From positions 1 to 32,406 of the IMG/VR virus record IMGVR_UViG_3300036766_000341: a stretch of DNA of 32,406 nucleotides. The stretch is one strand, 5' to 3'. The notes under the pieces were generated by a model. That model saw only the letters and a program-made list of their open reading frames with translations. It had not been told where the DNA came from and made no database searches. The first letter of the stretch is position 1. Every line of letters starts with the position of its first letter. The DNA is from a virus. A program made the translations under genes and the position numbers. Shown here one piece after another: positions 3,567-26,162 of the stretch.

Positions 3567-3643
3567 GCGGACGGGATAGCCAAGTCGCCGGGCTGGAGCA
3601 GGGGCCGAAGGCGACGCCGATCACCATACGGAGCCAGGCATGA
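3563..3643 (+). CDS. micro-ORF of 26 codons
   Basis: ATG at 3563 overlaps the regulator's stop, and its own TGA overlaps the ATG of the methyltransferase gene (ATGA at 3640-3643). The peptide starts MSGRDSQVAGLEQGPK. The only support is the perfect double ATGA coupling; there is no recognisable domain. It may be a real micropeptide or simply a translational bridge that carries ribosomes into the methyltransferase gene. Confidence 0.4.
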   Translation: MSGRDSQVAGLEQGPKATPITIRSQA

Positions 3644-5347: not shown

Positions 5348-5820
5348 CGAAACCGCGCCGGCCCGGCTCATTCGAGAACGCCATCGTTCGCATCATGGGC
5401 GCGCTCACGCCCGAGGGCGCGGCCGACGCGATCGGCAAATCCGTCAGCCTGTTGCGGCGGGCATCCGACAGCGACGACGACTTCCGGCTCTGCATCGATC
5501 ACTGCCTGAGCCTCGACAGCGCCTACGTGCGCGGCGGTCATGGACCCGCGCCGATCCTCGGGGTCTACAAACACCACGTCCTCATGCTGGGCCAGCCCGC
5601 CCACAGCCCGGCCGACCCCGCCGACCGCCTGGTTGATGTCATGCGGGAACTCGGCGAGTTGGCCGGCGAGGTCCGCATCGCCGGCGCCGACCGCCACTGG
5701 TCGCCGGGCGAGCGCGGCCGCGTCCTGGCCGCCATCGGCGAACTGCGGGAGGAAGTCGGCAAGCTGGAACGCGATGTCGAGACGGTCGAAGGCGTCGGCG
5801 GCCTGAGGGTCGCGCGGTGA
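5344..5820 (+). CDS. putative phage regulatory protein (158 aa)
   Basis: ATG at 5344 overlaps the upstream TGA. Residues 12-45 (AIVRIMGALTPEGAADAIGK then SVSLLRRASD) look like a helix-turn-helix in which the recognition helix reads SVSLLRRA. The middle covers a segment with HHVLMLGQP, and the C-terminal part (97-150) is a long helix with heptads (LVDVMRELGELAGEV, LAAIGELREEVGKLERDVE), suggesting coiled-coil oligomerisation. The overall plan is like phage CII-type activators, but I cannot name the family with certainty. It sits directly before the GcrA homologue and is coupled to it (GTGA at 5817-5820). Confidence 0.6.
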   Translation: MTKPRRPGSFENAIVRIMGALTPEGAADAIGKSVSLLRRASDSDDDFRLCIDHCLSLDSAYVRGGHGPAPILGVYKHHVLMLGQPAHSPADPADRLVDVMRELGELAGEVRIAGADRHWSPGERGRVLAAIGELREEVGKLERDVETVEGVGGLRVAR

Positions 5821-10737: not shown

Positions 10738-11110
10738 CAAGGGCGGGCGGCCTCCGAAGGATCCCAACTTGGCCGAACTGGAAAAGCTGGCCGCGATGGG
10801 CTGCACGCAGGAAGAGGCCGCCGCGTGGTTCGGGATGGCGCACCGGACGCTCAAGCTGAAGCTGGCGCAGGAAATCTACCGTGAGGCGTGGGAGAACGGG
10901 CAGGGTAGGGGTCGGGTGAGCCTGCGACGGGCGCAGTACCAGGCGGCCATGAAGGGCGATCGGACCATGCTGGTGTGGCTGGGTAAGACCCTATTGGGAC
11001 AGACGGAGAAGTCGATCCTCCAGGTCGAGGAGTTGCCGGTGCGGCTCGCCCTGACGGGCCAGATCGCGTCCATGTTCGAGACGCTCATGAAGGCTGCCAA
11101 GAGTGCCTAG
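10688..11110 (+). CDS. terminase small subunit-like protein
   Basis: A 140-residue protein from the ATG at 10688. It begins with a basic low-complexity stretch ending GGRPPKDPN, followed by a helix-turn-helix (LEKLAAMGCTQEEAAAWFGM, then AHRTLKLKL) and the block GRGRVSLRRAQYQAAMKGDR and MLVWLGKTLLGQTEK. These last blocks are typical of one family of phage small terminases, which recognise packaging sites and dock the large subunit. It overlaps the large-subunit gene by 8 bp, the classical order. Confidence 0.8.
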   Translation: MTEELQPKNRSRNQSANKGGRPPKDPNLAELEKLAAMGCTQEEAAAWFGMAHRTLKLKLAQEIYREAWENGQGRGRVSLRRAQYQAAMKGDRTMLVWLGKTLLGQTEKSILQVEELPVRLALTGQIASMFETLMKAAKSA

Positions 11111-12440
11111 CGCCGCCGCCATTCAAGTCGATGATGTGCTGGCCGGTCTCTCCGGCCTCGACCTCGCCGTCCTATCGGCCCGGATGCAATGGCTGGAAAA
11201 AGCGCGTCTTAAGCAACTCACGCCCGATGGCGATTGGTACACTTGGCTGATCCTGACAGGACGCGGCTGGGGCAAGACGGAGGTGGGTGCGAACTGGACG
11301 TGGTGGAATGCCTGGATGCACCCGAACTCCCGCTGGGCCGTTGTGGCTGCCACGAGCGATGATCTGCGGAAGACATGCTTCGAGGGCGAGACCGGTCTGA
11401 TAGCCGTAACGCCCAAGGAAATCATCGGCGACTACAATCGCCAGTTCCACGAGATCGCGCTCAAGAACGGCTCGCTCATCCAGTCCTACGCCGACACCGA
11501 GCCGAACCGCCTACGGGGACCACAACACCACGGCGCATGGGGCGACGAGACAGCAGCGTGGCTCAACATGGAGGACACGCTCGCTAACCTCCGGCTGGGG
11601 CTGCGGCTGGGAGACAAACCCCAGATGGTCATGACGACGACGCCGAAGCCGAGCAAGACGCTACGAGCGCTTGCTGTTCGCGACAGCACGATCGTTACGA
11701 CGGGGCCAACCGACGAGAACCTGGAGAACCTGCCTGACGAATTTCGTCGTGAGTTATATGACATCTACGAGGGCACGCGGCTCGGCCGGCAAGAACTGGG
11801 CGGCGAAATCCTCGACGACGCCGAGGGCGCGTTGTGGCGCCGCGACTGGCTGGATCGGGACCGCCGCAGGGTCGAGGACATGCCGGACCTCGGGGCGTTC
11901 GCCCAGATCGTCGTCGGTATCGATCCGGCCGCGACCTCGACGGAGAGTTCGGACGAGACCGGCATCATCGTATCGGCCGTCGATCATATCGGCCACGGCT
12001 GGGTGCTCGAAGACGTGTCCGGCCGCTACACGCCGGAGAAGTGGGCACGCGCCGCCATCGAGGCGTATCATCGGTGGAACGCGAACAAGGTGGTGGCGGA
12101 GAGCAACAACGGCGGTGACATGGTGAAGTCGGTCCTACGGGCCGTCGACGCGACCGTGCCGATCAAGCTGGTGACGGCCAGCCGGGGTAAGGCCGCGCGG
12201 GCCGAGCCGATCGCGGCATATTTCGAACAGGGTAGAGTGCATGTGGTTGGTACGTTCCGTGAGCTCGAAGACCAGCTTTGCACCTGGGAGCCGATGGGCA
12301 AGATGCGGTCGCCAGACAGGCTCGACGCGCTCGTGTGGGGGCTGTCGGAGATGATGGTGCGCCGTCGCTATGGTCAAGCCCAGCCAGGCGTGGCCGTGCT
12401 CGGCGGGATGGACCAGAGGGAGGAGCACTATGCCGCTTAG
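11103..12440 (+). CDS. terL: terminase large subunit
   Basis: A 445-residue packaging motor. Walker A is GRGWGKT at 53-59 and Walker B with catalytic Glu is GAWGDE at 144-149, followed by the coupling motif MVMTTTPKPS (175-184). The nuclease domain shows Asp274 in VGIDPAATS, Glu333 in VVAESNNGGD and Asp406/Asp408 in SPDRLDALVWG, the RNase-H-like metal ligands. The enzyme translocates DNA into the prohead and cuts it. The GTG start at 11103 lies inside the end of the small-subunit gene; no other start fits the length. All catalytic residues are present, so the protein is probably active. Confidence 0.95.
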   Translation: MPSAAAIQVDDVLAGLSGLDLAVLSARMQWLEKARLKQLTPDGDWYTWLILTGRGWGKTEVGANWTWWNAWMHPNSRWAVVAATSDDLRKTCFEGETGLIAVTPKEIIGDYNRQFHEIALKNGSLIQSYADTEPNRLRGPQHHGAWGDETAAWLNMEDTLANLRLGLRLGDKPQMVMTTTPKPSKTLRALAVRDSTIVTTGPTDENLENLPDEFRRELYDIYEGTRLGRQELGGEILDDAEGALWRRDWLDRDRRRVEDMPDLGAFAQIVVGIDPAATSTESSDETGIIVSAVDHIGHGWVLEDVSGRYTPEKWARAAIEAYHRWNANKVVAESNNGGDMVKSVLRAVDATVPIKLVTASRGKAARAEPIAAYFEQGRVHVVGTFRELEDQLCTWEPMGKMRSPDRLDALVWGLSEMMVRRRYGQAQPGVAVLGGMDQREEHYAA

Positions 12441-12741
12441 GCGCGTTATCTGGTGCGTCGCCGAGGTCAAATCTCGTTGCGGCGATCACGCTGTCTGGGA
12501 GTTCGGCGGGGTATTCTCAGCGCGGGAGGCGGCCGCCGCCGCGTGCCTGACGGAACGCCATTATTTCTGGCCGGGGTTTCTGGACGAAGCCGCTCCGAGC
12601 GAGACCGTCACGGAAGATCATCCCCTATTTCCGGGAGCGGCTTGGCCCAAACGGCATGGCGTGAATCGTCCGAACGATCCGCGCATGGTCGCCGCGTGGT
12701 GGGGGTGGGAAGGAATGGAGGGATCGGATCATGCCGCGTAA
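12430..12741 (+). CDS. hypothetical protein between terminase and portal (103 aa)
   Basis: ATG at 12430 has a strong GGGAGGAGC ribosome-binding site inside the terminase end. The protein is rich in Trp and aromatic residues (VIWCVAEVKS, HAVWEFGGVFS, RHYFWPGFLDE, VAAWWGWEGM). No family is recognised. It resembles small proteins often found at this site in Mu-type head operons. It ends within the first codons of the portal gene (11-bp overlap). Confidence 0.65.
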   Translation: MPLRRVIWCVAEVKSRCGDHAVWEFGGVFSAREAAAAACLTERHYFWPGFLDEAAPSETVTEDHPLFPGAAWPKRHGVNRPNDPRMVAAWWGWEGMEGSDHAA

Positions 12742-15169
12742 GCAGAGGCAGCGGGTCGCGAAGAATGCCATGACGACGCCCGCCCCTACCATTAGGAAGG
12801 CTCCGCCCTCCCTCAAGGTCCTGGATGGCGGCCAGGCCACGTCGCCTCCGCCTGAGCGCTATGCCGTCGCCGAGATGGTGCTGTCCGACGCATTCCGGCT
12901 GTACGGCGGGCGATTCAACGAGGTCTACAACCCGAGCAAGCTGGTCGGAAAGGACAACTATCGCTCGCTCACGACCATGCGCCGCGACGACCAGATCAAG
13001 GCCGCGATGTCGCTGAAAAAGCACGCGGTGCTGGCGAGCGGGTGGAACTTGGAGATGCCTCCCGACATGGAAGGTCATGACGAGCAGTCGTGGGGGCCGT
13101 GCGCGTTCGTGCAGAACCAGCTCGACGAACTCGATGGGTCGCTCCACGAGTCGCTATACCAGATCCTGATCGCCCTGGACTACGGGTTCTCGATCTCCGA
13201 GCGGGTGTACCAGGAGATCACGACTGGAGATTTCGCGGGCATGATCGGTCTCAAGGCGATCAAGTCGAAGCGGCCGGACCAGTTCGTGTTTCGGGTGGAC
13301 GAGTTCGGAAACATCACTGGGATCAGGCAGCCTGGCATTGGCGCGGTCGAGCGGGCCGTCAACACGGATGTCCCATTGTGGAAGATCGTGCTGTTCATCC
13401 ATCAGGGGGAGTTCGGCAATCCCTACGGCATCCCAGACCTGGAGGCCGCCTACGACCCGTGGTTCCACAAACAGAACACTATCCGCTGGATGATGCAGAT
13501 GCTGGAGCGATTTGGCATCCCGCCGATCGTGGCGATGTACGATCCAAATCAGATCCAGGGAGCGCAGCAGGAGCAACTCAGGACGATCTTCAAGAATTGG
13601 CAGTCGGCAACGAGCGCGTTGATCCCGCGTCCTGATCCGGAGGCGATAGAGATCCAGTTCCCCGAGCTGGCGGGCCAGGTCTCGCGGGTCTTCATCCCGG
13701 CGCTCGACAAGTTCAACCAGGACATCAGTCGGGCGCTCCTCATGCCGGGCTTGCTCGGTATCACGGCGGAGACAGGCTCGGGGTCCTACGCGCGGGCGAA
13801 GGTGCAGTTCGATGTGTTCATGCTGGTGGTAGAGAAGCTCCGGGCCGACCTGGAGCGCGTCGTCAACGAGCAGATCGTGAGGCCCATGATCGACCTGAAT
13901 TACGGCGACGGGCCGTATCCGCTGTTCAAGCTCAACCCGGTGGCGCAGGACGTGCGGCTCGACGTCATGACGACCTGGGCGCAACTCACGGGAGCCGGGG
14001 TGGTCCACTCGCTCCCGCGCGACGAGCTCCACTTGCGACAGCAGCTTGAGTTCCCGGAGGTCACGGAGGAGGAGCTCGCGGCGATCGCCGATGATGCCCG
14101 CGCGGTGGCGGAGGAGAAGGCATCGCGGGAGGCGGATGCTCGCGCGGGTACGAAGGGGCCGGCGGGTGAGGCCGAGCCCTCGGCGCGGGACGTACCGAAT
14201 GACATGATGGTGATGGCGGGGCGCGGTGTCGTCCGGCCGACCGTCGCGACAGCCGAGGTTCACACCCACGCCGAACGGGCACCGACCCGCTACGAGCGCT
14301 CCATCAACTTCGCGCTGGTACGTTCCGAACTGGACGAGGCGCAGGCGACCGCCCTAACCACCATTATGGCCGCCCTGCGTGGCGTGCGCGATAAGTTGCT
14401 GTCCGGCATTGCTCGCGTGATTGATGAACGCGAGATCAAGGCCGTACGGGAGCTGGTGCTGCCAAGCATGGCCGGGGTCGAGCGCGCCATCGGGGCGTTC
14501 CTGGAGGGGACGTTGGACGCTGGACGCGCGAGCGGGAGACGGGATCTGAAGAACGCGCGGACGTTCAGTTTCGATCCTTCCCAGCCGCGAGCCGACGACG
14601 GGAAGTGGACGGACGGAGGGGGCGGCGGTGGTAATGGTGACGAACGTGACCCGTCTTCGCCGGGGTTCAAGTTCGAGCACGCCGATGCCGTGACGGGCGG
14701 GCGGTTGAAGATCAAGGAATCGTTCACCGGCAACGCGACCACGAGCGATGAGCATGTCACGCTGCTCGGGGCGACGGTGAAGCGCGAGACGGACAAGGCC
14801 GTACTGGTCTCGACCGAGATAGACACGGCCGTCGGTCGGCGTGACTTGTCCGTGTGGCTGCCCAAATCCCAAATCGTGGTAGCGGAGGATGGCAGTGTCA
14901 CCGCGCCGAAATGGTTGGTGGACAAGAAAGACGAAGAGGCGCGCGCCAACTATCCCAGCGGCAGCTACTACGGTATCCAGTATCAGTCTGGCGAAGGCGG
15001 CGAGGGCAAGACCGTGTTCCACGTCAAGCTCAAGTACGATCCTGATACGGTGTCCGCGTTCAAGGCGGCCGTGGGCAAGCGAAGCTGGGACGGATACGAC
15101 AAGACGTGGACGGTGGACGGATCGGAACGCGACAACCTCCGCGCATTTGTCGCGACGTTGAAGGGATAG
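12731..15169 (+). CDS. portal protein (DUF935/Mu gp29-like) with extra C-terminal domains
   Basis: An 812-residue protein, much longer than the usual 450-550. Residues about 45-460 are the DUF935-type portal: YRSLTTMRRDDQIKAAMSLK, the crown/stem region with WMMQMLERFGIPPIV, then LLGITAETGSGSYARAKVQF. Residues 518-610 look like the front part of a MuF protein (YERSINFALVRSELDEAQ, LAGRASGRRD-type helix). Then come FDPSQPRADDGKWTDG and a poly-Gly linker (612-636), a domain with WLPKSQI (709-715) and TAPKWLVDKK, and a final VFHVKLKYD ... KRSWDGYDKTWTVDG module (762-797) that recalls HARP-like nucleic-acid-binding repeats. Good ribosome-binding site (GGAGGGATCGG). Confidence 0.85.
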   Translation: MPRKQRQRVAKNAMTTPAPTIRKAPPSLKVLDGGQATSPPPERYAVAEMVLSDAFRLYGGRFNEVYNPSKLVGKDNYRSLTTMRRDDQIKAAMSLKKHAVLASGWNLEMPPDMEGHDEQSWGPCAFVQNQLDELDGSLHESLYQILIALDYGFSISERVYQEITTGDFAGMIGLKAIKSKRPDQFVFRVDEFGNITGIRQPGIGAVERAVNTDVPLWKIVLFIHQGEFGNPYGIPDLEAAYDPWFHKQNTIRWMMQMLERFGIPPIVAMYDPNQIQGAQQEQLRTIFKNWQSATSALIPRPDPEAIEIQFPELAGQVSRVFIPALDKFNQDISRALLMPGLLGITAETGSGSYARAKVQFDVFMLVVEKLRADLERVVNEQIVRPMIDLNYGDGPYPLFKLNPVAQDVRLDVMTTWAQLTGAGVVHSLPRDELHLRQQLEFPEVTEEELAAIADDARAVAEEKASREADARAGTKGPAGEAEPSARDVPNDMMVMAGRGVVRPTVATAEVHTHAERAPTRYERSINFALVRSELDEAQATALTTIMAALRGVRDKLLSGIARVIDEREIKAVRELVLPSMAGVERAIGAFLEGTLDAGRASGRRDLKNARTFSFDPSQPRADDGKWTDGGGGGGNGDERDPSSPGFKFEHADAVTGGRLKIKESFTGNATTSDEHVTLLGATVKRETDKAVLVSTEIDTAVGRRDLSVWLPKSQIVVAEDGSVTAPKWLVDKKDEEARANYPSGSYYGIQYQSGEGGEGKTVFHVKLKYDPDTVSAFKAAVGKRSWDGYDKTWTVDGSERDNLRAFVATLKG

Positions 15170-15172
15170 GCG

Positions 15173-15829
15173 ATGTTCAAGCCATGTGACGAATGCCAGG
15201 ACCGAGAGGCCTGTGAGCTTCGTCAGCGATGCCCGGATGCGCCCCGCACGTTCGCCGCGGAACTGCCGAACGTGAGGCCCGCGTCCGCCGTCCGTTACCT
15301 CAAGACCAAGCGGTTCTGGATCACGGGCGTGATCGGCGACAACCTGCTCAGGGACGCGCGCGGCATCCTGCTGTCCGCCATCGAGACGGGCGAGCCCGCC
15401 AGCGACACCATGCGGAAGCTCAAGGCATCGTTCGAGCCGTATGTCGGAGGCGAGGACGGCGTGGAGGTTGACGGCGAGGTGGTCGGGCCGGCTCGGCTGG
15501 AAACGATCATCCGGACCAACGCGACGGACGCATACAATCGGGGGCGCCTGGTGGAGTTTCGGGAGAACGCCGATGTGGTGCCCTTTGTCGAGTACAGCGC
15601 GATCCTGGACGATCGCACGACGCAGGTCTGCAGGGAGTTGGACGGCAAGGTGTTCCGCAACGACGACCCGGAGCTCGACCGCTTCAAGCCGCCGCTGCAC
15701 TTCAACTGTCGCTCCGTCCTGGTGCCGATCACGTCGAGCGAGCCCGTGGACGACGCCGACCTCGCGACCGAAGGCGATCTGGGCCAGGCGCGCGATCTCA
15801 TGGACGCGGAGTTCGGCGGCGAGAAATAG
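15173..15829 (+). CDS. MuF-type head morphogenesis protein
   Basis: A 218-residue protein of the phage Mu F-like family. Residues 36-90 (PASAVRYLKTKRFWITGVIG, then LLSAIETGEPASDTMRKL) and 105-187 (RLETIIRTNATDAYNRGRL, VEYSAILDDRTTQVCRELDG, PPLHFNCRSVLVPI) are the core. MuF proteins are internal or injected head components and support assembly. The front half that normally precedes residue 36 appears to be on the portal gene instead (portal residues 518-610). The first 20 residues have four Cys (C5, C8, C14, C20), a possible zinc site not typical of the family. Starts three bases after the portal stop. Confidence 0.88.
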   Translation: MFKPCDECQDREACELRQRCPDAPRTFAAELPNVRPASAVRYLKTKRFWITGVIGDNLLRDARGILLSAIETGEPASDTMRKLKASFEPYVGGEDGVEVDGEVVGPARLETIIRTNATDAYNRGRLVEFRENADVVPFVEYSAILDDRTTQVCRELDGKVFRNDDPELDRFKPPLHFNCRSVLVPITSSEPVDDADLATEGDLGQARDLMDAEFGGEK

Positions 15830-16101: not shown

Positions 16102-16494
16102 ATGCGGCCCGGCGCCATTCTCTTGCTCGCGGTGGTCTTGCTCCTGTCCGCGCCTGTCTGGGCGGCCGATTGCGTCCAGGCCCAGCTCCGAGGCCGGTGG
16201 GACGTGTACCTCGCCACGGTTTCGGGCACGCCGTCCGGCCTCCTGTTCTGCTCCCTCGTGATTGATGGGCATGGCCAGTTCGTCAGTGCGTCATCGTTCT
16301 GTGGCGACCTGACGACGCTTGGAAGACTGAAACTGGACGCAGCCTGCCGTGTCAACGGATCGCTCCAGGTCGGGGGTCATCCTGGTCTCTCGCGCTCCGT
16401 CTCGGCGACCCTCGCGCCGGATGGTGACACGTTCCTCGGGTTCGGACGCAGCTATTTCGGAGCACAAATGACGGTAGGAGGAGTGAGGCGATGA
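16102..16494 (+). CDS. secreted protein, first gene of carbohydrate cassette
   Basis: A 130-residue protein from the ATG at 16102. A clear Sec signal peptide (MRPGAILLLAVVLLLSAPVWA) is followed by a likely signal peptidase I site after VWA. The mature part has four or more Cys (C near the start, LLFCSLV, SSFCGDL, DAACRVN), suggesting disulfides in the periplasm, and strand-type sequence with GRW and DGHGQFVS. This pattern looks like a small beta-barrel or lipocalin-like fold, but it is unassigned. No ribosome-binding site is obvious, so an upstream start in the same frame is possible. A periplasmic or surface role, such as superinfection exclusion, is possible by analogy with phage morons. 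Confidence 0.6.
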   Translation: MRPGAILLLAVVLLLSAPVWAADCVQAQLRGRWDVYLATVSGTPSGLLFCSLVIDGHGQFVSASSFCGDLTTLGRLKLDAACRVNGSLQVGGHPGLSRSVSATLAPDGDTFLGFGRSYFGAQMTVGGVRR

Positions 16495-16894
16495 ACATCG
16501 ATGACGTACACACCCGCATCATGATTAAGACCGCGTCGAGTGGTCACCACTACGAGAGCTACTGCTTCTCTTCGACGGAGGACGCGCGCGCCGTCATGGA
16601 CGATCTGGTCGCGGCCATGCGGGCTACCCCCCCCCCAACGCGGCGCGCATGGGGCCCGATATGGGGCGTGTCCTCTTCTCCGAGAATCAGTCTCATCTGT
16701 GGAAGAGCGGCGAGTCGGCGCAGGAAACCATTGTCACGTTTGACCACCTATTCGGGCGACTTTCCATCCGGGCCGACACAATCATGGAGGTCGCCTGTCA
16801 GGCGTTCAGTGGCGAGATGGTGATGCACGAGTTCTACACGCGGTACAATCAGCAGGCGCGCGAGATCAAGGCCCGATATGGGGAGGCGACATGA
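16491..16894 (+). pseudogene. ORF split by a frameshift at a run of ten C
   Basis: The ATG at 16491 overlaps the previous stop. The first frame reads MNIDDVHTRIMIKTASSG... to about residue 47 and then reaches C10 at 16627-16636. After it the original frame becomes Arg/Ser/Pro-rich and ends at 16823. The -1 frame instead continues as a normal protein (NAARMGPDMGRVLFSENQSH, then FDHLFGRLSIRADTIMEV and a helical end) to 16894, whose stop overlaps the next ATG. So the intact product would have about 134 residues. No ribosome-binding site precedes the ATG at 16649. Ribosomal slippage, a phase-variable switch or a sequencing indel could each explain it. No family recognised. Confidence 0.7.
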
Positions 16895-18117
16895 TCTCCG
16901 TCGGTTGGGTCGGTCTCGGCAAGCTGGGCCTCCCGCTCGCCATCACGTACGCGCGCGCGGGCGTGATCGTGCTGGCGTATGACACGGATTACCCAACAGT
17001 CGAGAGTCTTGCCGCGCATCCGTCGCTCGCATACGAGCGCGGCGTTGCGGACTACCTGAGCGGGCACAGGCGAACGCCGGGCGGTCTTGGCATTGGGTCC
17101 TTGACTGACGCTCTCAAGGCCCGTGTCGTCTTCCTCGTCCTGCCGACGCCCGGTCCAGGGCTGGATCCGTCCGCCCTGTTCGAGTTCGTGGATGGTCTAG
17201 ACTCCGGATGGCAGGGTTCCATCGTAGTCGTATCGACGACTCTGCCCGGCACCTGCCGCGAGCTCGCCAAGCACCTGACCAAGGGCCAGCGGCTCTACCA
17301 CCTGTCCAGCTATGCCGGCATGGGGACCGTTCTGGCGGACGAGGGCCTATCCCGTGACATCGTGATCGGGTCGCTGGACGGTCTGACTGATCCGGACCTG
17401 GACGCCGTGCTGGACGCACGCTACGGCGCGGGCTGGCGCCACCGGGCGCGGGTTGTTTCACGTGAAACATCAGAGATGGCGAAGCTGGCGGTCAACGTCG
17501 TAGCCTCGCTCAAGGTTGGGTTTTCCAACGACATGACACGGCTGTGCCATGCCACCCCGGGGGCGGACGCGGACGCCGTGCTGGGCATCGTGGCGCGGGA
17601 CCAGCGGGCGTCGAGCGGGCGGTACATCGGGGTCGGCATGGCAGACGGCGGACCTTGTCACCCGCGCGAGGTCGAGGCGCTGGAGCGGATGATGCATGAC
17701 GGAGCCATGTTCCACGCTGCCCGCGCGGCCCGGCAGAACTACAACTACTGGCTGGCCTCCACTGTCATGAAGACGAGACTGCGGCGGGTACTGATCTGGG
17801 GCACCGGCTTCAAGGACGGCGTGCCGTTGACGGACAACTCAAGCGCCGTCGTGGTGGCCGAGACGTTGCGGGGGTTTGGTTGCGAGGTCCACGAGTATGA
17901 TCCGACGGCAATGTCGATGAGGATGCCTCAGGGAATGCTGGTCAAGGACGTGATCGCGAAGCCGGTGGCGATCCTGCTTGCGACGGACCAGGGATTCATC
18001 GGCGAGTGGATCGACTCCGTGGCGTTGGGCTCCGTCATCGTGGATGCTACGCGATGTGGTTGCCCTATCGCGGGTGATGGCGTGCGGTACGTGCGGCTGG
18101 GGCGGGGGCCGGTATGA
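16891..18117 (+). CDS. UDP-sugar dehydrogenase (UDP-glucose/GDP-mannose dehydrogenase family)
   Basis: A 408-residue NAD-dependent four-electron oxidase that converts a nucleotide hexose to the uronic acid. The Rossmann start is GWVGLGKLGLPLA (5-17). The central helix has EMAKLAVNVVASLKVGFSND (195-213) with the catalytic Lys208. The active-site Cys is C256 in GGPCHPREVEAL (the family has GG(S/P)CFPKD). The third domain shows GTGFKDGVPLTDNSS (304-318), matching GLAFKPxTDDxRESP. The most likely substrate is UDP-glucose or a UDP-HexNAc; sequence alone does not decide. The gene contains a perfect parS palindrome. ATGA coupling at both ends places it in the cassette operon. Confidence 0.88.
   Translation: MISVGWVGLGKLGLPLAITYARAGVIVLAYDTDYPTVESLAAHPSLAYERGVADYLSGHRRTPGGLGIGSLTDALKARVVFLVLPTPGPGLDPSALFEFVDGLDSGWQGSIVVVSTTLPGTCRELAKHLTKGQRLYHLSSYAGMGTVLADEGLSRDIVIGSLDGLTDPDLDAVLDARYGAGWRHRARVVSRETSEMAKLAVNVVASLKVGFSNDMTRLCHATPGADADAVLGIVARDQRASSGRYIGVGMADGGPCHPREVEALERMMHDGAMFHAARAARQNYNYWLASTVMKTRLRRVLIWGTGFKDGVPLTDNSSAVVVAETLRGFGCEVHEYDPTAMSMRMPQGMLVKDVIAKPVAILLATDQGFIGEWIDSVALGSVIVDATRCGCPIAGDGVRYVRLGRGPV
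17454..17469. promoter_or_regulatory. perfect parS partition-site sequence inside the dehydrogenase gene
   Basis: The 16-bp palindrome TGTTTCACGTGAAACA is identical to the consensus bacterial chromosomal parS, the loading site for the CTP-dependent clamp ParB. It occupies codons 188-193 of the dehydrogenase. Those codons and the next (GTT GTT TCA CGT GAA ACA TCA) all end in A or T, while those before and after end almost only in G or C. Confidence 0.85.
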
Positions 18118-19061
18118 AAGTCCTCATCACGGGTGGATGCGGATTCCTCGGCTCCGCTCTAGCGCGGCGGTTCCGAGAACGGGGGGACGAGGTAGAGACG
18201 ATGGACGTGGTCGGCGATCCTGATCGCCGCTGGGACATGACGCGGGCAAGCACCATGGTCGAGGGCAACACGATGGGGACGGTGGATCCAGGCGGCAGCT
18301 TGCTGGACGAGATATCGTGGGTCCATCCCGACCTCATCATCCACGCCGCCGCGATCAACGGCACGCGCAATTTCTACGAGCGTCCGGCCGACGTGTTCCT
18401 CGCGACAGCCCAGGGCACCATCAACATCGCGCAGGCGTTCGCGAGGTACGGACGCGGCAGGTTGATCTATTTGTCGTCATCGGAGGTGTACGGCCAGGCG
18501 ATGACGTTCCCCACGCGGGAGGACGCCCCTCTGACGATCCCCGATATGGGCAACCCGCGCTACAGCTACGCGGCCGGCAAGATCGCTGGCGAGGCGGCGG
18601 TGACATACTTGTGCGCCGGAAAGGACACCGTGATCGTGCGGCCCCACAACATCTACGGGCCGGGCGGCTCGCCGGATCACGTCGTCGTGTCATTGATCGA
18701 CAAGATCGCGGCCGGCGGGTTGCTGGAGCTCGACGGCGATCCCCGCTCGGTGCGGACGTTCTGCTACGTAGACGATTTCGTGTCCGCCATCGAGGCCATC
18801 GCCGATGCCGGGGCGCCCCCGCACGTCATGAACGTCGGGTCGTACTACACGTCCAGCGTCTGGGGGCTGGCGAGCACGATCGAAATGCTCATGGACCGCC
18901 CCGATCGCGAACCGATTAGTTTCACCGGAGTGGCCCAACCCATAGGCTCGCCGTTCGTGCGGATCCCGGACCTGAGCCGGCTGGCCGCGCTAGGGTGGGA
19001 GCCGAAGGTCTCGCTGGTGGAGGGCCTCAAGAGGACGATCGCGTGGCGCGCGGGAGCGTAG
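18114..19061 (+). CDS. NAD-dependent sugar epimerase/decarboxylase (extended SDR)
   Basis: A 315-residue extended short-chain dehydrogenase. TGGCGFLG at 6-13 binds NAD, HAAAINGT follows at 77-84, and the catalytic triad is Ser in YLSSSEVYG (119-127) with Tyr152-xxx-Lys156 in YSYAAGK. The SSSEVYG loop, with Ser-Glu where dehydratases have Asp-Glu, is the pattern of UDP-glucuronate decarboxylases such as ArnA and UXS, and RPHNIYGPGG and RTFCYVDDF are also in place. Following a UDP-sugar dehydrogenase, decarboxylation of the uronate to a 4-keto pentose or epimerisation is plausible. Specificity is not certain. ATGA coupling with the dehydrogenase. Confidence 0.85.
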   Translation: MKVLITGGCGFLGSALARRFRERGDEVETMDVVGDPDRRWDMTRASTMVEGNTMGTVDPGGSLLDEISWVHPDLIIHAAAINGTRNFYERPADVFLATAQGTINIAQAFARYGRGRLIYLSSSEVYGQAMTFPTREDAPLTIPDMGNPRYSYAAGKIAGEAAVTYLCAGKDTVIVRPHNIYGPGGSPDHVVVSLIDKIAAGGLLELDGDPRSVRTFCYVDDFVSAIEAIADAGAPPHVMNVGSYYTSSVWGLASTIEMLMDRPDREPISFTGVAQPIGSPFVRIPDLSRLAALGWEPKVSLVEGLKRTIAWRAGA

Positions 19062-20281
19062 CCGAGGGCGCATGCGAGGTATGCGGGGGCGCGCTGTGGG
19101 TCGTCCACGACTTCGGCTCCCAGCCGATGTGCAATGATCTCCGCACCGAGGCGCCGCGCTATCCGCTGGTGCTGGCGCGGTGCCGGACATGCGATCTGGT
19201 GCAGCTCGACGGCGCCTCGCGACTGGATCCGACGGCGGTGTTCCCGGCCAGCTATCCGTATCGCACCCGGCACAGCGAGCAGTTGAAGGCGGAGGCGCGC
19301 CTATTGTGTGGGTCGATCAACGAGATCATCTCGCGGAAGATCGGTCGTCCCCGGAGGCAGGACGAGATGATCGAGGTCCTGGACGTGGGCTGCAACGACG
19401 GCACGTTCCTGGACGAGTTCGCCCGGCACGGCTACGCGACCTACGGCATCGATCCCACGGACGCCGTGCTGGATTGCACGTCCTCGCACATTGTTGCCCA
19501 GAGGCCTCTGGACGATGCCTTCGTGACCGGGATACTGGCCGACAAGCCCAATGGCTTCGGCGTCGTTATGTGCAACAACGTCTTCGCTCACGTACCGGAC
19601 CCGATCGCGTTCGCCAATCTGATGCGGCGGCTGACCCACCAGCACGGCTTCGTGTCGGTGTCGAACCACTACCTAGGCGCCGTGCTGGACGGGCAGTGGG
19701 ACACCGTTTACCATGAGCATCGGCGGTACTACTCGGCGGAGACACTCACGCAGACGCTCACGAGTGCTGGCCTCTGGGTCTTCGCGCGACGGTTCACGGT
19801 GGTCCACGGCGGATCGATCAATCTGCTCGCCGGGCCGGCCCAGATCGAAAACGCGGACGTTCGGATCGAGGAAGAATCCACGTTCTCGACGGGACTCCAC
19901 AATTTCTCCGCCAGCGTCACTCGGCACGTCGAGACGATCCGCGCTCGCGTCCGCGACAATTGGGGCTCGCGCCCCGTCATCTTGGCGGGCGTTCCCTCGC
20001 GCGCCGGCACGCTCGTGGGTGCGTGCGGCTTCATGCGGGCCGATATCGCCATGGCGGTCGAGCCTGCGGGCTCCGCGAAGATCGGTGGCTTCCTGCCCGG
20101 AACGGACATCCCGATCATGTCGGACGACGCCGCGCCCGCCCAGGCGGTCGTGCTGATCGGGTCGCACCACCTGGGCGAACCCTTCATCCGCAAGATGGTG
20201 GCGCGCTACGGCGGCCCCGCCATCGTGCCTCACGGGTGGAGCGTGCTGACGGTTTCCGAGCACGAGGTGACCCGTGCCTGA
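19043..20281 (+). CDS. zinc-type SAM-dependent sugar C-methyltransferase
   Basis: A 412-residue protein from GTG 19043, with GAGGA seven nt upstream and a 19-bp overlap with the epimerase. C11-E-V-C14 and C47-R-T-C50 form the N-terminal zinc site. LDVGCNDGTF at 113-122 is SAM motif I, and YHEHRRYYS at 223-231 is the signature of the TylC3/NovU group of sugar C-methyltransferases (YHEHxxYxS). The C-terminal third with GVPSRAGTL completes the family architecture. These enzymes methylate C-3 or C-5 of keto-deoxy nucleotide sugars, so a keto-sugar intermediate in this pathway is implied. The length is normal (about 410). Confidence 0.85.
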   Translation: MARGSVAEGACEVCGGALWVVHDFGSQPMCNDLRTEAPRYPLVLARCRTCDLVQLDGASRLDPTAVFPASYPYRTRHSEQLKAEARLLCGSINEIISRKIGRPRRQDEMIEVLDVGCNDGTFLDEFARHGYATYGIDPTDAVLDCTSSHIVAQRPLDDAFVTGILADKPNGFGVVMCNNVFAHVPDPIAFANLMRRLTHQHGFVSVSNHYLGAVLDGQWDTVYHEHRRYYSAETLTQTLTSAGLWVFARRFTVVHGGSINLLAGPAQIENADVRIEEESTFSTGLHNFSASVTRHVETIRARVRDNWGSRPVILAGVPSRAGTLVGACGFMRADIAMAVEPAGSAKIGGFLPGTDIPIMSDDAAPAQAVVLIGSHHLGEPFIRKMVARYGGPAIVPHGWSVLTVSEHEVTRA

Positions 20282-20906
20282 TCCGATTCGCGCCGCGTTG
20301 TGGACGCCAGCGAACCATTGGGCCAACCCTGCGGCGGAAGCGATCTTCGCGCGGACGGCTGCGCTGCTCGGCTGGAACATCGCCGGGGCGCCGGACGCCG
20401 ACGTGCTGTTCAACTTCCTCCGGCGTCAGCGCATCCCGTCCGATCTCTGCCCCCGCGCCATCAACATCCACCCGGCGTCGTCGAAATATCCCGGCGTCGG
20501 CGGCGCGAGTCGGGCGATATTGGAGGGTGACACGGAGTTCGGGGCGTGCGCGCACTTCGTGACGGAGCAGTACGACGAGGGGGACGTGGTGTGGGAAAGC
20601 ACCTTTCGGCTCGATGCCGGCATTTCAGCCGAGCAGCTTCTTCATGTTGCTGAAATGGCAGCGCTCGCGGTTCTCCACGAAACGATGGCAATAGTTAAGA
20701 GGCACGGCGGTCTTCGCTATGCGTGGCCGTCGGCAGATTGCCGCCCATGGCGCGGCCTCTATTGCTCGCGCGCGCAACTCAGGGAGATGATGACGGCGAG
20801 GCCTGACGGCGACGTTGATCGTGTCGTCCGCGCCTTCCGCTTCCCTGGCAAACCCGGTCCTTATGTGCGGGTCGGCAAGCACCTGTTCTCGCTGGTGACG
20901 GAATGA
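20274..20906 (+). CDS. formyltransferase-like enzyme (sugar N-formyltransferase)
   Basis: A 210-residue protein of the formyltransferase fold. Asn64, His66 and Asp101 in INIHPASSKYPGVGG and EQYDEGDVVW reproduce the N...H...D catalytic triad of ArnA, methionyl-tRNA and sugar N-formyltransferases, including the HP and KYPGVGG-type loop. The donor would be N10-formyl-tetrahydrofolate and the acceptor an amino group, here best a nucleotide amino sugar because an aminotransferase gene follows directly. It lacks the C-terminal OB-type domain of tRNA enzymes, which argues against a role in translation. GTG start with an 8-bp overlap. Confidence 0.8.
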   Translation: MPDPIRAALWTPANHWANPAAEAIFARTAALLGWNIAGAPDADVLFNFLRRQRIPSDLCPRAINIHPASSKYPGVGGASRAILEGDTEFGACAHFVTEQYDEGDVVWESTFRLDAGISAEQLLHVAEMAALAVLHETMAIVKRHGGLRYAWPSADCRPWRGLYCSRAQLREMMTARPDGDVDRVVRAFRFPGKPGPYVRVGKHLFSLVTE

Positions 20907-21925
20907 ACCTGCATCGGCCTTGGGCCAAGCAATCAACGTTGTTCGTGGAGGCGGCTGTCATCGCCGGCACGCCGCATCTGTCGGCCACGGATCAGTTGAC
21001 CGACGACCTCGCCGAGCGGTTCGGCGTGAAACGCGAGCAGGTCGTCCTGACGTGCAGCGGGACGGTCGCCCTCGGGCTGTTGTGGAATTTCGCCTCGACC
21101 GCCTCCACATGGACTGTCCGGGTCCCGGCCTACGGCTTCGTTGCGACGGCGAACGGGGTGGGCCTGGCACCGGGGAATCGAGACGTGAGACTTGTGGACG
21201 TAGACCCCGCGACGGGGTGGATGCTGGGGACGAAGTATCGTTTCCAGTGTCCCGTCGCGTTCTCCGGGACCCTAGAGTCTTTTCTCGGGTATCGCGTTGA
21301 TCCCTCCTTGGAGGTGATTCTGGACGGAGCGGCGATCCTGGGGAACGAGAGAGCGAAGAACTTCTTTCGTATTTCGTCGAGTCTAAAGGGTGTCGCCCTC
21401 TCGTTCAGCGCGACGAAGTTGATCTCCGCCGGCATGGGGGGGGCCGCGATCTTCGCCGACGCCGACACGGCTCGCGAGGCGATGTGGTTCATCCATCAAG
21501 GCGGTGACTGGGCGGCCCCCGATGGACCCGGGCAGACGCACCCCGGCACGAATCTCCGGATGGGCTACTGGCAGGCGGCGCTCGCGCTTGCTCACCTGCG
21601 CCAGATCGACGACCTCCGGGCGGCGTGTGCGGATGCCCGCGAGGTGTTCGAGGCGGCCTACGGAGACCGCCTGGTGCCGTCCGCGCCGGGCGCCTACAAC
21701 ATCGTCCGTACCGAGCGTGCGCGCTCGCTGCATGGGGTCGCGGGCGCTCGCTGGAGGCTCCACCGGGCACTCTACAACCACGCCTTCTGGAACGACCTGG
21801 GAGACGACGCGACGTTCCCCGGCGCCGCCGAGGCGGAGCGGACGTACTTGTATCTCCCCTACGGTCCGGGGGTGACCCGCGAGGACGCCGAGCGGATCGT
21901 CGAGCAACTAGGAGACCTGGCGTGA
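20903..21925 (+). CDS. DegT/DnrJ/EryC1/StrS-type sugar aminotransferase
   Basis: A 340-residue PLP enzyme, a little shorter than the usual 370-400. LTCSGTVALGL at 49-59 is the phosphate-binding turn, Asp141 in EVILDGAAILG contacts the PLP ring nitrogen, and Lys172 in LSFSATKLISAGMGG is the Schiff-base lysine. The family transfers an amino group to keto nucleotide sugars (for example ArnB makes UDP-4-amino-arabinose). The run of eight G at 21436-21443 lies just after the lysine codon; the frame is intact here. ATGA coupling with the formyltransferase gene supports one pathway: keto sugar to amino sugar to formamido sugar. Confidence 0.85.
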   Translation: MNLHRPWAKQSTLFVEAAVIAGTPHLSATDQLTDDLAERFGVKREQVVLTCSGTVALGLLWNFASTASTWTVRVPAYGFVATANGVGLAPGNRDVRLVDVDPATGWMLGTKYRFQCPVAFSGTLESFLGYRVDPSLEVILDGAAILGNERAKNFFRISSSLKGVALSFSATKLISAGMGGAAIFADADTAREAMWFIHQGGDWAAPDGPGQTHPGTNLRMGYWQAALALAHLRQIDDLRAACADAREVFEAAYGDRLVPSAPGAYNIVRTERARSLHGVAGARWRLHRALYNHAFWNDLGDDATFPGAAEAERTYLYLPYGPGVTREDAERIVEQLGDLA

Positions 21926-22620
21926 CCCAGTCGCGCTACGCCGTTGTCATGCCGACGTACATCACGGAGCGGTGGCAACTCATCATGACCCGTGCCGCCG
22001 TGGATACCCTACGAGCGACGACGGACGAGCCATTCACGCTGATCGTTCCCAATCGAGCCGGGAACTTCGAGCGGGAACTCACGGAACTCTTGGCGGACGA
22101 CCACGTCATCAGCATCCCCATCGCCGAGAGCCGTAGTGTCAACCACGACACGAACATCGGGTTCCGTCTCGCGGCCGACGAGGGTCACGAGTTCGTCATC
22201 TACACCGGCAACGACGTGTTCACCCGTCCTGGATGGCTGGAGGGCCTGAGGGAGTGCTTCGCCCACGATCCGCGCTGTGGCATCGCGACCCTGATGCCAT
22301 CGGAGAACCGGCAACTACTGCACAACCCGCGTGGAATCCAGGAGGGTGTCTACGGTCCGTTCATGATGTTCCGCGCCGGATGGGAGTTCGACGCGGACGA
22401 GTTCCCAGGCGTGTTCGGCGACACCGATTTCGTCGTGCGGCACTATCGCGAGGGGTTCCGCGCATATCGGAACAATGAACACACGATCTACCACTTCCTG
22501 CACCAGACCGCGATCTTCGGGCCGGATGCGTACCAGGCTGCTTTGACGAAGTTCAAGGCGCGGCACGACGGGTGTGGGCTGGTGGTGCAGCGGCTCCTAG
22601 CCCAAGGGGGATTGTTCTGA
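21922..22620 (+). CDS. GT2-like glycosyltransferase
   Basis: A 232-residue soluble protein. The start YAVVMPTYITERWQLIMTR and the strand-turn VIYTGNDVFTRPGWLEGL (with Asn97-Asp98 in the position of the metal-binding DxD) are the nucleotide-sugar part of a GT-A fold. A later FGDTDFVVRHYREGFRAY region is the usual acceptor-side acidic motif. There is no membrane segment, so it does not look like ArnC-type transferases, which use a polyprenyl carrier. It is likely the enzyme that transfers the cassette sugar. GTG start in a GTGA overlap. Confidence 0.75.
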   Translation: MTQSRYAVVMPTYITERWQLIMTRAAVDTLRATTDEPFTLIVPNRAGNFERELTELLADDHVISIPIAESRSVNHDTNIGFRLAADEGHEFVIYTGNDVFTRPGWLEGLRECFAHDPRCGIATLMPSENRQLLHNPRGIQEGVYGPFMMFRAGWEFDADEFPGVFGDTDFVVRHYREGFRAYRNNEHTIYHFLHQTAIFGPDAYQAALTKFKARHDGCGLVVQRLLAQGGLF

Positions 22621-23543
22621 TGGTAGACGAGCGCCTGATCCGCCACCTGCTAGCGTGCTCGGATGTGGAGGGTGCGTTGTGGGCGCTGTCCACGATCAAG
22701 GAGAATTGTCCGTGGTCGGAGACCATTGAGAGTTACATCTTCCGGCACTGGCCGCAATCGGTCGTGTGGCCGGAGAAAACGATCAAGGCCGCGCACGAAG
22801 CCATCTACGCCGAGGCCGGTCGCATCGAGGCCGCGCTGCCGGGCGTCTTCTGGACGATCCCGCAGGGGTTGCGGTATCAGCTTCTCCGGGACTTCTTGGC
22901 GGCGAGACCCGGTCGCGCCCCGTTTCGGCTCCTGGACTACGGTTGCTCGCGAGGCTTCTTCTCGACGCATCTTACGAGACTTCAGCCGCGTGGCATTTTC
23001 GTCGGTCTCGATATTGACCAGACCTCCGTGAACCAGGCGAACGCCTACGCTCAGGTGTACGCCCCCGACGTGGTTAAGGAGGGTCGCCTGTGGTTTGACC
23101 AGGGGACGAGCGAAGATGGCTGGCGGCTTTCGTGGGGCGACGACGGCTTCGATTATGTCGTCCTGATGGAGATCCTGGAGCACGTCCCGGACGCCAAGGC
23201 ACTGCTCGATTGGGCGTGGGACCGGCTGCTCCCGGACGGCCAGGCGTTCGTCACCGTCCCGCTCGGTCCGGTCGAGTACCTGATGTGGCTGCGGGAACCG
23301 CACCGCAAACGCGAGCATATCCGGGAACTCCGGGAAGATACCCTCCGGCTCATGTTCCTGGGAGCTCGAGACGTGGAGGTGCAGACCTACGAGACGGGCG
23401 AGTGCCCCGTGACGGGGCTGAAAGTCGGCACCACGGTCGCGACGTTCCGTAAATCCGAGACGCGTCCGACATTCGCGCGGGATCTCTCGGCCGTGTTGTC
23501 CGTCGCGGTCCCCGAAGGGGCGAGATTGTCCCTCCCGACGTAG
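22620..23543 (+). CDS. class I SAM-dependent methyltransferase
   Basis: A 307-residue protein whose ATG overlaps the stop of the glycosyltransferase (TGATG) with AAGGGGGA as ribosome-binding site. Residues 1-95 form a helical N-terminal extension. LLDYGCSRGFFSTHL at 104-118 is SAM motif I, followed by FVGLDID, FDYVVLMEILEHVP (about 178-191) and GQAFVTVPLGP, the Methyltransf_23/11 pattern. It closes the cassette and probably O-methylates a sugar or the acceptor. It is similar in plan to the methyltransferase domain of the fusion gene at 30517. Confidence 0.82.
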   Translation: MVDERLIRHLLACSDVEGALWALSTIKENCPWSETIESYIFRHWPQSVVWPEKTIKAAHEAIYAEAGRIEAALPGVFWTIPQGLRYQLLRDFLAARPGRAPFRLLDYGCSRGFFSTHLTRLQPRGIFVGLDIDQTSVNQANAYAQVYAPDVVKEGRLWFDQGTSEDGWRLSWGDDGFDYVVLMEILEHVPDAKALLDWAWDRLLPDGQAFVTVPLGPVEYLMWLREPHRKREHIRELREDTLRLMFLGARDVEVQTYETGECPVTGLKVGTTVATFRKSETRPTFARDLSAVLSVAVPEGARLSLPT

Positions 23544-23593: not shown

Positions 23594-24736
23594 GTGAGTA
23601 TCGTCATCAAGAATGCCATGTCCCCGAGCGCCACGCCCAACAGCGTGGACATCTCGGGCGTCGAGGTCTTCCGGGTGGGAACCTGGAACGGGAATACCTA
23701 CTCGTCCGAGGATCTGGACGATATCGTTGCCGCTTTCGGCGAGATCGGTTGGAAGCCTCCCCTCAAACTCGGGCACTCCGAGGACGACTCGGCCCCGGCC
23801 TATGGCTGGGTCGAGGGGCTGCGGCGGGTCGGTGATTGGCTGGTCGCGGACCTGTCCGCAGTACCCTCCGGCATGGCCGAGCAAATCCGGGAGCGCCGGT
23901 ACGACGCCGTCTCCGCCGAGATCTTCCACAATCTCAACCTGAACGGGAAGAAGTACCGTCGCGCCCTCCGCGCCGTTGCCCTGTTGGGGGCCATCACCCC
24001 CGGGGTTGACGGTCTCAAGCCGCTCTCCCAGGCGCTCAGCATGGCCAAGGGCGCCCAGTTCGAATCGATGAACGCCTATTCTCTAACCAGTAAGGAGCAC
24101 GCCCCCATGGCCGACGAAGCGAAGAAGCCCGACCCGGTCATCGTGCCGGCCGTTGTTCCGGCGAAGGAGCCCGAGATCGCGGATCTCAAGCAGTTCCGCG
24201 ATATGCAGGCGCAGAACGCCGCGCTGGCCGCGACGGTCGAAAAGCTGTCGGCCGACATCGTGAAGTTCGCCGGCCTGGCCGATCAGGTCACCGATCTGAA
24301 GAAACAGGCCGAGGCCGCCAACGAGGCGCGCCGGATCGAGAAAGTCTCCGGCAAGGTCAACGAGATCGTGATCCCGGCGTATCGGCCATTCTTCGCCGCG
24401 ATGTACGACCTAGCGACCAAGCACGAGACGACCCTGGTGAAGTTCACGGCCAGCGACGGCAAGGAGACCAAGGTGACGGAGATCTCCCCGGTCGCCGCGC
24501 TCGACGGACTCGCCGAGGTCATCAACCGCCATGCCAAGCGGCTCTTCACCGAGATGACGGGCAAAAGCGTGCTGCCCCGCGATGACGCGGCCATCATGGA
24601 GCGCGCGGCCGACGAGGTCGATCGCCTCACGAAGAAGCTGATCGGCGAGGGCAAAGTCAAGAACTACAAGGAGGGGATGGACGCGGTCCTCGCGGCCGAC
24701 CCTGACCTGAAGCAGCGCTACGCGGCGCGGCAGTAG
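23594..24736 (+). CDS. Mu I-like prohead protease with C-terminal scaffold domain
   Basis: A 380-residue protein. Residues 20-145 are the protease: PLKLGHSEDD (56-64, catalytic-type His61), PAYGWVEGLRRVGDWLVADL, RRYDAVSAEIFHNL (101-114, with Ser107) and YRRALRAVALLGAITPGVDGL. This matches the phage Mu protease I family, which cleaves the scaffold during prohead maturation. Residues 172-380 are helical and charged (MADEAKKPDPVIVPAVVPAK, long coiled-coil stretches), typical scaffold. GTG start; a possible in-frame ATG at 23618 (NAMSPSAT) is less favoured. It resumes the canonical head gene order after the cassette. Confidence 0.9.
   Translation: MSIVIKNAMSPSATPNSVDISGVEVFRVGTWNGNTYSSEDLDDIVAAFGEIGWKPPLKLGHSEDDSAPAYGWVEGLRRVGDWLVADLSAVPSGMAEQIRERRYDAVSAEIFHNLNLNGKKYRRALRAVALLGAITPGVDGLKPLSQALSMAKGAQFESMNAYSLTSKEHAPMADEAKKPDPVIVPAVVPAKEPEIADLKQFRDMQAQNAALAATVEKLSADIVKFAGLADQVTDLKKQAEAANEARRIEKVSGKVNEIVIPAYRPFFAAMYDLATKHETTLVKFTASDGKETKVTEISPVAALDGLAEVINRHAKRLFTEMTGKSVLPRDDAAIMERAADEVDRLTKKLIGEGKVKNYKEGMDAVLAADPDLKQRYAARQ
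24107..24736 (+). CDS. nested internal-start scaffold protein
   Basis: Inside the protease gene, in the same frame, the ATG at 24107 is preceded by AAGGAG (24092-24097) at nine nt, a near-perfect ribosome-binding site. The product is the last 209 residues (MADEAKKPDPV...): the helical scaffold without the protease. Mu (I/Z) and lambda (C/Nu3) use the same arrangement to make excess scaffold. Confidence 0.75.
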   Translation: MADEAKKPDPVIVPAVVPAKEPEIADLKQFRDMQAQNAALAATVEKLSADIVKFAGLADQVTDLKKQAEAANEARRIEKVSGKVNEIVIPAYRPFFAAMYDLATKHETTLVKFTASDGKETKVTEISPVAALDGLAEVINRHAKRLFTEMTGKSVLPRDDAAIMERAADEVDRLTKKLIGEGKVKNYKEGMDAVLAADPDLKQRYAARQ

Positions 24737-24755
24737 TCGAGGAGGAACCCAGACG

Positions 24756-25145
24756 ATGGCATCCGGAACTTTCGGCGACCAGGTCCGCATCAGCCTCCAG
24801 GCGGCGGCGTCGCTTACCGCGCAGCAGTTTCACATCGTTCGCATCTCGGCGGCCAACCAGTGCAACGTCGCGTCGAACGCCCTCGGGCAGACGACCGTCG
24901 GCGTGCTCCAGAATAAGCCGGCGATCAACCAAGCGGCCGAGATCGCGATCTTCGGCGAGACCAAGCTCGTGGCCGGCGCGGCTATCGCCACGGTTGGAGA
25001 CTACATCTCGACGAACGGGTCCGGTCGGGCCATCGCGGCTGTCTCGGGCAGTGCCGTCATGGGCATGGCCCTGACGAACCCAGGGGCGGACGGCGAGATC
25101 TTCCGGGCCGTCGTCTTCCCGCCGTACTTCACCGGCAATCTGTAG
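24756..25145 (+). CDS. head decoration / minor capsid protein
   Basis: A 129-residue protein with a strong GAGGAGG ribosome-binding site. It is beta-rich with little charge and repeated small residues (GDQVRISLQAAASLTAQQF, then VGVLQNKPAINQAAEIAIFG and GMALTNPGADGEIFRAVVF). The size and the KPAINQAAEIAIFGETKLV block fit DUF2190-type or head-stabilising decoration proteins, which trimerise on the capsid surface. Location between the protease/scaffold and major capsid genes supports this. It is a candidate acceptor of the cassette sugar (inference). Confidence 0.75.
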   Translation: MASGTFGDQVRISLQAAASLTAQQFHIVRISAANQCNVASNALGQTTVGVLQNKPAINQAAEIAIFGETKLVAGAAIATVGDYISTNGSGRAIAAVSGSAVMGMALTNPGADGEIFRAVVFPPYFTGNL

Positions 25146-25154
25146 GAGGCAGCG

Positions 25155-26162
25155 ATGCTCGACGATCTGGTACGGAAGTACGCGGGCTCGTACCCCACGG
25201 AGGCCGATGGTCACGTTGACCGGGCGCTGTCCAATCTCGCCATCATGGCGTTCGATATCGGGGAGGCGGGCCTGGTCGGGAATGCCCTACTCCCGGTGGT
25301 GCCGGCGGATTTTCAGTCCGACAAGTATTTCGTCATCGAGAAGGATGCCTTCCGCCGGGTGCCGGATCAGACCCTCCGGGCGCCGGGCACGCGCGCCAAG
25401 TCGATCCAGTTCAAGGTGTCGTCGGACAGCTTCTTCTGCAAGAACTACGCGCTCTCCCACGAGACCCCGCTGGAGTCCATCCGCAACGCCGACACGGCGA
25501 TCAGGTTCCGCGAGAACGCATCGGCCCTCGTGGTCCGCGCGCTACTCCTGGACCAGGAGCGTCGTATCGCCAACCTAGTCACATCGATCAGCAACATCGG
25601 CTCCGGCGTCGCCCTGACGGGAACGGCCAAGTGGTCGGATTTCGCCAATTCCAATCCATTGGCCGATATCAACACGGCCCACGCGTTCATCCGCAATGCC
25701 ACGGGTCTGCTGCCCAACACGGCGGTGATCGATTGGGACACCATGATGGTGCTCCGCCGTCACCCGCAACTCCTGGACTTCCACAAGTTCACGAGCGGCG
25801 GCGAACTGGCGGACAGCCAAATCCGGGACTTCCTCAAGGTCCAGACGTTGCTGGTCGCCCAGGGCACCATCCAGATGGACAACGAGTTCACTCCGGGGGT
25901 CACGGAGACGGCGTCGGTCGTATCGATCTGGGGCAACACCGTCCTGTTCGCCCGCACCGGGCCGAACACCGGGCTCCAGAGCCAGACGTTCGGGCTCCGC
26001 TTCCGCTGGCAGCCCGACGTGTTCCCCGCGAACATGGCCGTGGCGGTCAACCAGGACACCGGTCCGGGTCGGCCGAAGGTCGAGATCGTCGAGGCCGGGT
26101 ACTACCAGGACGAGAAGGTGGTCGCCCGCGATCTGGCCTACGCTCTCACGACCGTCCTGTAG
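25155..26162 (+). CDS. major capsid protein
   Basis: A 335-residue protein with AGGAGG seven nt before the ATG, one of the strongest ribosome-binding sites here, as expected for the most abundant virion protein. Size and position after protease and decoration genes match Mu-like HK97-fold major capsid proteins. Features include the N-arm (MLDDLVRKYAGSYPTEADGH), the E-loop-like VIEKDAFRRVPDQTLRAPGT, and the core with NTAVIDWDTMMVLRRHPQLL and LFARTGPNTGLQSQTFGLRF. No obvious N-terminal delta domain, which fits a separate scaffold. Confidence 0.88.
   Translation: MLDDLVRKYAGSYPTEADGHVDRALSNLAIMAFDIGEAGLVGNALLPVVPADFQSDKYFVIEKDAFRRVPDQTLRAPGTRAKSIQFKVSSDSFFCKNYALSHETPLESIRNADTAIRFRENASALVVRALLLDQERRIANLVTSISNIGSGVALTGTAKWSDFANSNPLADINTAHAFIRNATGLLPNTAVIDWDTMMVLRRHPQLLDFHKFTSGGELADSQIRDFLKVQTLLVAQGTIQMDNEFTPGVTETASVVSIWGNTVLFARTGPNTGLQSQTFGLRFRWQPDVFPANMAVAVNQDTGPGRPKVEIVEAGYYQDEKVVARDLAYALTTVL

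Follow-up and report, generated by a model that had tools for sequence, protein, structure and literature searches.

The phage genome fragment analysed here (the window, a whole linear IMG/VR record of 32,406 bases) carries an exact parS palindrome. This palindrome has probably been kept for its DNA sequence, as a host-ParB docking site for positioning, segregation or retention of the phage genome. Hundreds of other phage records share the motif, far more than expected by chance, an excess suggesting that many phages make use of the chromosome-sorting machine of their hosts. On balance, we favour the view that phages without ParABS, which range in size between 5-kb microviruses and 140-kb myoviruses and mostly infect hosts with chromosomal ParABS, use host-consensus parS, often coded as V-S-R-E-T, to recruit host ParB. 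Such use would be widespread and largely undescribed, and the window would be one instance of it.

ParB is seen as a factor that segregates chromosomes and plasmids. If many ParB-less phages keep host-type parS, ParB would also be a common host factor of infection, positioning or persistence. This would account for the presence of VSRET in phage proteins unrelated to one another and would provide a one-motif predictor of phages that use the host segregation machinery. We find the recurrence and conservation of host-type parS in ParB-less phages more interesting than the single site in the window.

A consensus parS site in a phage sugar gene

The window is a GC-rich fragment of a tailed phage, with the following features around the site.

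11103..12440, + strand: terminase large subunit, upstream phage context (phrog_979, 1.9e-39)
12731..15169, + strand: Mu-type portal protein (Portal_Mu, 166 bits)
15173..15829, + strand: Mu F-like (MuF) head morphogenesis protein, bordering the accessory slot on its left (Phage_Mu_F, 67.9 bits)
16891..23543, + strand: accessory sugar cassette, inserted in the head module
16891..18117, + strand: UDP-glucose/GDP-mannose dehydrogenase-like gene, carrying parS (PF00984, 52.4 bits, from residue 192; PF03721, 39.9 bits; PDB 3gg2, E=3.6e-21)
17454..17469, no strand assigned, 16 bp: parS palindrome TGTTTCACGTGAAACA, identical to the chromosomal consensus and proposed to load host ParB
23594..26162, + strand: conserved block of protease, small decoration-like and major capsid genes, in this order, right neighbour of the slot (putative roles, from tblastn synteny with relatives L253, L255, L264 and others)

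A scan of the 32,406 bases returned one exact copy of TGTTTCACGTGAAACA, the 16-bp palindrome of chromosomal-type sites and the consensus parS bound by chromosomal ParB. A first reading of the window from its letters alone (the sequence-only reading) had claimed a perfect parS at this place, and the claim was correct. No other match with three or fewer mismatches was present, at a laxity where 0.03 matches are expected. Markov models of order 1–4 built on the window gave an expectation of 1.5×10−6 to 3.4×10−6 for an exact copy. The earlier figure of 7.5×10−6, stated for uniform base use and said to be less in GC-rich DNA, was somewhat higher. The presence of parS in the window by chance is very unlikely.

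The gene carrying the site is intact, and both Pfam and PDB matches bear out its earlier description as a phage sugar gene. The palindrome extends from the third codon base of residue 188 to residue 193 (V|VSRET), directly before the central-domain motif TSEMAK. Solved homologues of the dehydrogenase in the PDB have different residues at this domain junction. Besides the dehydrogenase, the cassette encodes an NAD-dependent epimerase, two methyltransferases, a formyltransferase-like protein, a DegT aminotransferase and a protein 34% identical to one in the related locus L255.

The block to the right of the cassette had no Pfam match. Relatives L253 and L254 have the MuF gene directly next to the protease gene; in L255, L261, L263 and L265 the two are ~3–7 kb apart. 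Because this spacing varies among relatives, we regard the slot as accessory and parS as sitting in cargo. Across L253, L255, L261, L263 and L265 the slot holds different accessory inserts or none, the mark of a hotspot for cargo within the head module.

Codon usage at the site

The site is read in frame as CGG / GTT GTT TCA CGT GAA ACA TCA / GAG (peptide V V S R E T S). Seven consecutive codons end in A or T, as had been pointed out earlier, and G-ending codons flank them on both sides. Frequent A/T-ending codons elsewhere in the gene would have spoken against selection on the DNA; they make up 19% of the codons of the dehydrogenase gene overall, and the run at parS is its longest. Among the genes tested, a longer run (8) occurred only in an AT-richer replication gene.

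We recoded the phage proteins at random by the phage's own codon usage. Given V-V-S-R-E-T, synonymous recoding produced parS with P = 9.2×10−7. The dehydrogenase spot was the only place where the proteome could encode parS (26 genes tested), so that the total probability lay there. The relatives of the window phage are all remote, and in the window itself a possible synonymous constraint shows as the codon anomaly (P = 9×10−7). Together with the conservation in other phages described below, it supports the earlier proposal that the DNA rather than the protein is selected.

Occurrence of parS in phage collections

In IMG/VR, at least 120 stretches contained exact TGTTTCACGTGAAACA. Two control palindromes that equal it in length and composition, namely its reversal and TGTTTGACGTCAAACA, were found once each. 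The 18-mer flanked by A...T also occurred at least 120 times, and 43 of the first 120 parS loci had the A...T form. From these two numbers the IMG/VR total extrapolates to ~330 or more, and some of these contigs could be host DNA. Among the 50,697 phage records of INPHARED, 378 matched a 30-mer with the parS core and 402 a 30-mer with other flanks, compared with six for the reversed core and 23 for the second control; these counts include many near-identical isolates, and the independent groups number tens rather than hundreds. Nineteen of the 23 second-control records were true parS at two mismatches.

The parS-bearing phages in INPHARED include Listeria P100-like, Microbacterium, Arthrobacter, Gordonia, phi29-like Bacillus, Lactobacillus, Pseudomonas, Roseobacter and Vibrio phages as well as Microviridae. 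No Escherichia, Salmonella or Klebsiella phages were among the ten commonest names in the matches. Enterobacterial phages are plentiful in the phage collection. Enterobacteriaceae lack chromosomal parABS (PMC7022226). In Pseudomonas phages the site had the form TGTTCCACGTGAAACA. Half of this sequence is the Pseudomonas-type half site. Full-text searches of the literature turned up no account of parS being common among phages.

Of the 48 sites that fall within long open frames, 10 were read in the other frame, and many sites were intergenic. Both observations make it unlikely that VSRET is kept for the protein.

Microviridae contributed 18–20 records to the 30-mer matches. In the same family MG945707, a 5.3-kb circular genome of a single-stranded DNA phage (L290), has an exact parS at 3419–3434. 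Vibrio phage phi 3 (L285) carries an exact parS at 1004–1019 in its terminal repeat, between A1- and A2-like genes, and phiPsa374 (L284) has a one-mismatch parS at 1004–1019 in its terminal repeat. By analogy with T5, the phi 3 site would lie in the first-entering DNA.

Conservation of parS DNA in other phages

The phi29-like phages B103, Goe1, BSP4 and Chedec 11 all have a first site towards the end of the connector gene (gene 10) and a second within the endolysin gene (gene 15), at offset 446 in each of the four. In gene 10, six of six parS codons were identical in every pair of these phages, and within the gene 15 site all codons for identical amino acids were identical (5/5 or 6/6). Outside parS, divergent pairs shared 40–53% of codons at positions with identical amino acids, and the close pair B103–Goe1 shared 77–83%. 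The longest invariant run in gene 10, 22 nt, surrounds parS (GAAAATGTTTCACGTGGAACAT). As judged by codon identity, these comparisons show that selection acts on the parS DNA in phi29-like phages.

Arthrobacter phages are distant terminase relatives of the window (~39–42% identity) and have parS as VSRET in the head protease gene. Arthrobacter phage BruhMoment reads TVSRETF where its relatives have AASTEEF, in an otherwise conserved stretch. Its capsid protease gene (L165, 838–3633) contains three parS-like sites, all VSRET and in the same frame. Microbacterium phages have the site within a gene whose product is a helix-turn-helix protein. Five of these phages encode DVSRET with unchanged codons, and Metamorphoo has an exact parS elsewhere in the same gene. 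Across unrelated phage genes, parS in the form of VSRET thus arises independently.

Candidate ParB proteins and known systems

The ParB DNA-binding domain HTH_ParB was found in none of 18 parS-bearing isolate genomes, and ParB_N scored above cut-off in 3 of 80 parS-bearing IMG/VR records. We considered phage ParB-like proteins as readers of the site and rejected them; the ParB_N proteins inspected (Microbacterium, Arthrobacter and two IMG/VR records) lacked a ParB helix-turn-helix in Pfam. Among the window proteins scanned, the product of the gene at 9445–10737 has the only ParB_N-like match, which is sub-threshold and fused to N6_N4_Mtase, and Pfam detected no ParB DNA-binding domain in its product. 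The remark made at first sight, that this ParB-domain methyltransferase may be unrelated to the site, was therefore right. The window encodes two DNA-methylase genes (3640–4764 and 9445–10737), one of the MT-A70 type and one the ParB_N–N6/N4 fusion.

No parA or parB was recognised among the window proteins scanned, the record being a fragment. Within that scope the window resembles phi29 in having parS but no partition ParB. A phage-plasmid with its own ParABS is disfavoured for the same reason. Since the parS phages tested lack a ParB helix-turn-helix, host ParB is the natural reader. Host ParB recruitment, put forward by the sequence-only reading as one of several meanings, is now the best reading: ParB would bind a site also carried and conserved by further phages that encode no ParB DNA-binding domain.

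According to PMC9437464, which cites Meijer et al. (2005), phi29 relies on Spo0J, the ParB of its host, to have its DNA trapped in spores. The window resembles this type as a phage without recognised ParB; the phi29 relatives B103, Goe1, BSP4 and Chedec 11 have two to four parS or one-mismatch sites, coded as N-V-S-R-(E/G)-T within genes and in the same reading frame as the window site. The window differs in being GC-rich, with a host that is probably not spore-forming and one site in an accessory sugar gene, so that spore trapping is not implied.

Compared with parS of chromosomal ParABS, the 16-bp sequence is identical, but the window site lies on a phage genome, not near oriC, and no parA or parB was recognised in the fragment. 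A host-type site would also segregate an episomal phage, as in the phage-plasmids (P1, N15 and mycobacteriophages with parABS). However, those encode their own ParA and ParB and have centromere sequences of their own, whereas the window has a host-type site only. SGI1 hijacks the parABS of IncC plasmids (PMC10954446). It is likewise a mobile element using a partition system not its own, but the system belongs to a plasmid and not to the chromosome.

Proposed role of host ParB

We infer host-ParB binding, spreading and a benefit in the window phage. After infection, host ParB would load on the phage parS as a CTP-dependent clamp and spread across neighbouring phage DNA. The phage genome would thereby be linked to the origin-segregation apparatus of the host (ParA, polar anchors, SMC). 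The likely gain would be positioning, or that phage genomes are kept and passed on during a non-lytic, delayed or episomal phase. The site itself would be hosted as a harmless peptide, V-S-R-E-T, at the domain junction of an accessory cargo gene. This reading is weakened by the single site, which lies in cargo and not in core genes, and by the lack of the site in 58 relatives, though all are remote.

Alternatively, host ParB may serve no partition but be recruited to load SMC/condensin on incoming or replicating phage DNA, to compact or organise this DNA, or as a decoy that perturbs host chromosome segregation and division. We regard this as possible but rather unlikely. It would suit the presence of parS in phages that are commonly taken to be virulent (P100, phi29-like phages and the T5-like Vibrio phi 3) and in 5-kb Microviridae. 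The terminal-repeat sites, exact in phi 3 and with one mismatch in phiPsa374, suggest an early event after injection. On the other hand, one or a few sites per genome are few for titrating ParB unless the phage replicates, and the phi29 evidence is about genome trapping.

Relatives of the window phage and other origins of the site

We collected relatives of the window phage by terminase and capsid, and no parS with two or fewer mismatches was detected in 51 IMG/VR records or in seven genome loci (mostly Rhodobacteraceae). These 58 relatives share 27–52% protein identity with the window (the nearest ~50%), and nearly all lack the sugar cassette. Absence from homologous phages had been named in advance as evidence against a selected site. 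It was indeed observed, yet it is not decisive, because the relatives are so remote and nearly all without the cassette.

The examined relatives without the site would agree with a chance 16-mer match that was noticed because the motif is famous, and so would a scan that covers many windows and many known motifs. Such a coincidence is highly improbable in view of the codon anomaly and of the control palindromes in IMG/VR, by which the random share should be well under 5% of the exact matches.

Capture of the dehydrogenase from a host chromosome near oriC, with parS as a functionless passenger, was another meaning offered by the sequence-only reading. Sugar genes are often acquired horizontally, and parS sites often sit within genes near oriC. 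However, searches by seed patterns, with tblastn for genomes, retrieved no close relative of the dehydrogenase, whether from the viral contigs of IMG/VR or from 84,980 genomes of bacteria and archaea, and in those genomes no bacterial orthologue was found that has parS at the codons in question. Moreover, the PDB homologues differ at the parS junction and the VSRET form recurs in unrelated phage genes, where it arises independently. We give this origin very little credence.

Reading of the palindrome by another factor, as an RNA hairpin or the operator of a phage regulator, would fit a 6-bp stem possible in the RNA and the Microbacterium site inside a helix-turn-helix protein gene, but is hardly credible for a sequence that is the exact ParB consensus, takes the TGTTCCACGTGAAACA form in Pseudomonas phages and has a local RNA fold no stronger than that of shuffles (z = −0.44), by which we rejected the hairpin.

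Further observations on the window

Terminase relatives of the window phage in named genomes are mostly from Rhodobacteraceae. No integrase was recognised in the window fragment. A weak CII-like protein is encoded at 5278–5820, which hints at a temperate phage. A 15-bp repeat is present in thirty copies (609–1062) inside a pentapeptide-repeat gene on the minus strand (397–1155). Upstream of the cassette, a small gene contains a run of ten C (16627–16636); its frame (16491–16640, MNIDDVHTR...) seemingly resumes in another frame at 16649–16894, and the run is either a sequencing or assembly slip or a frameshift.
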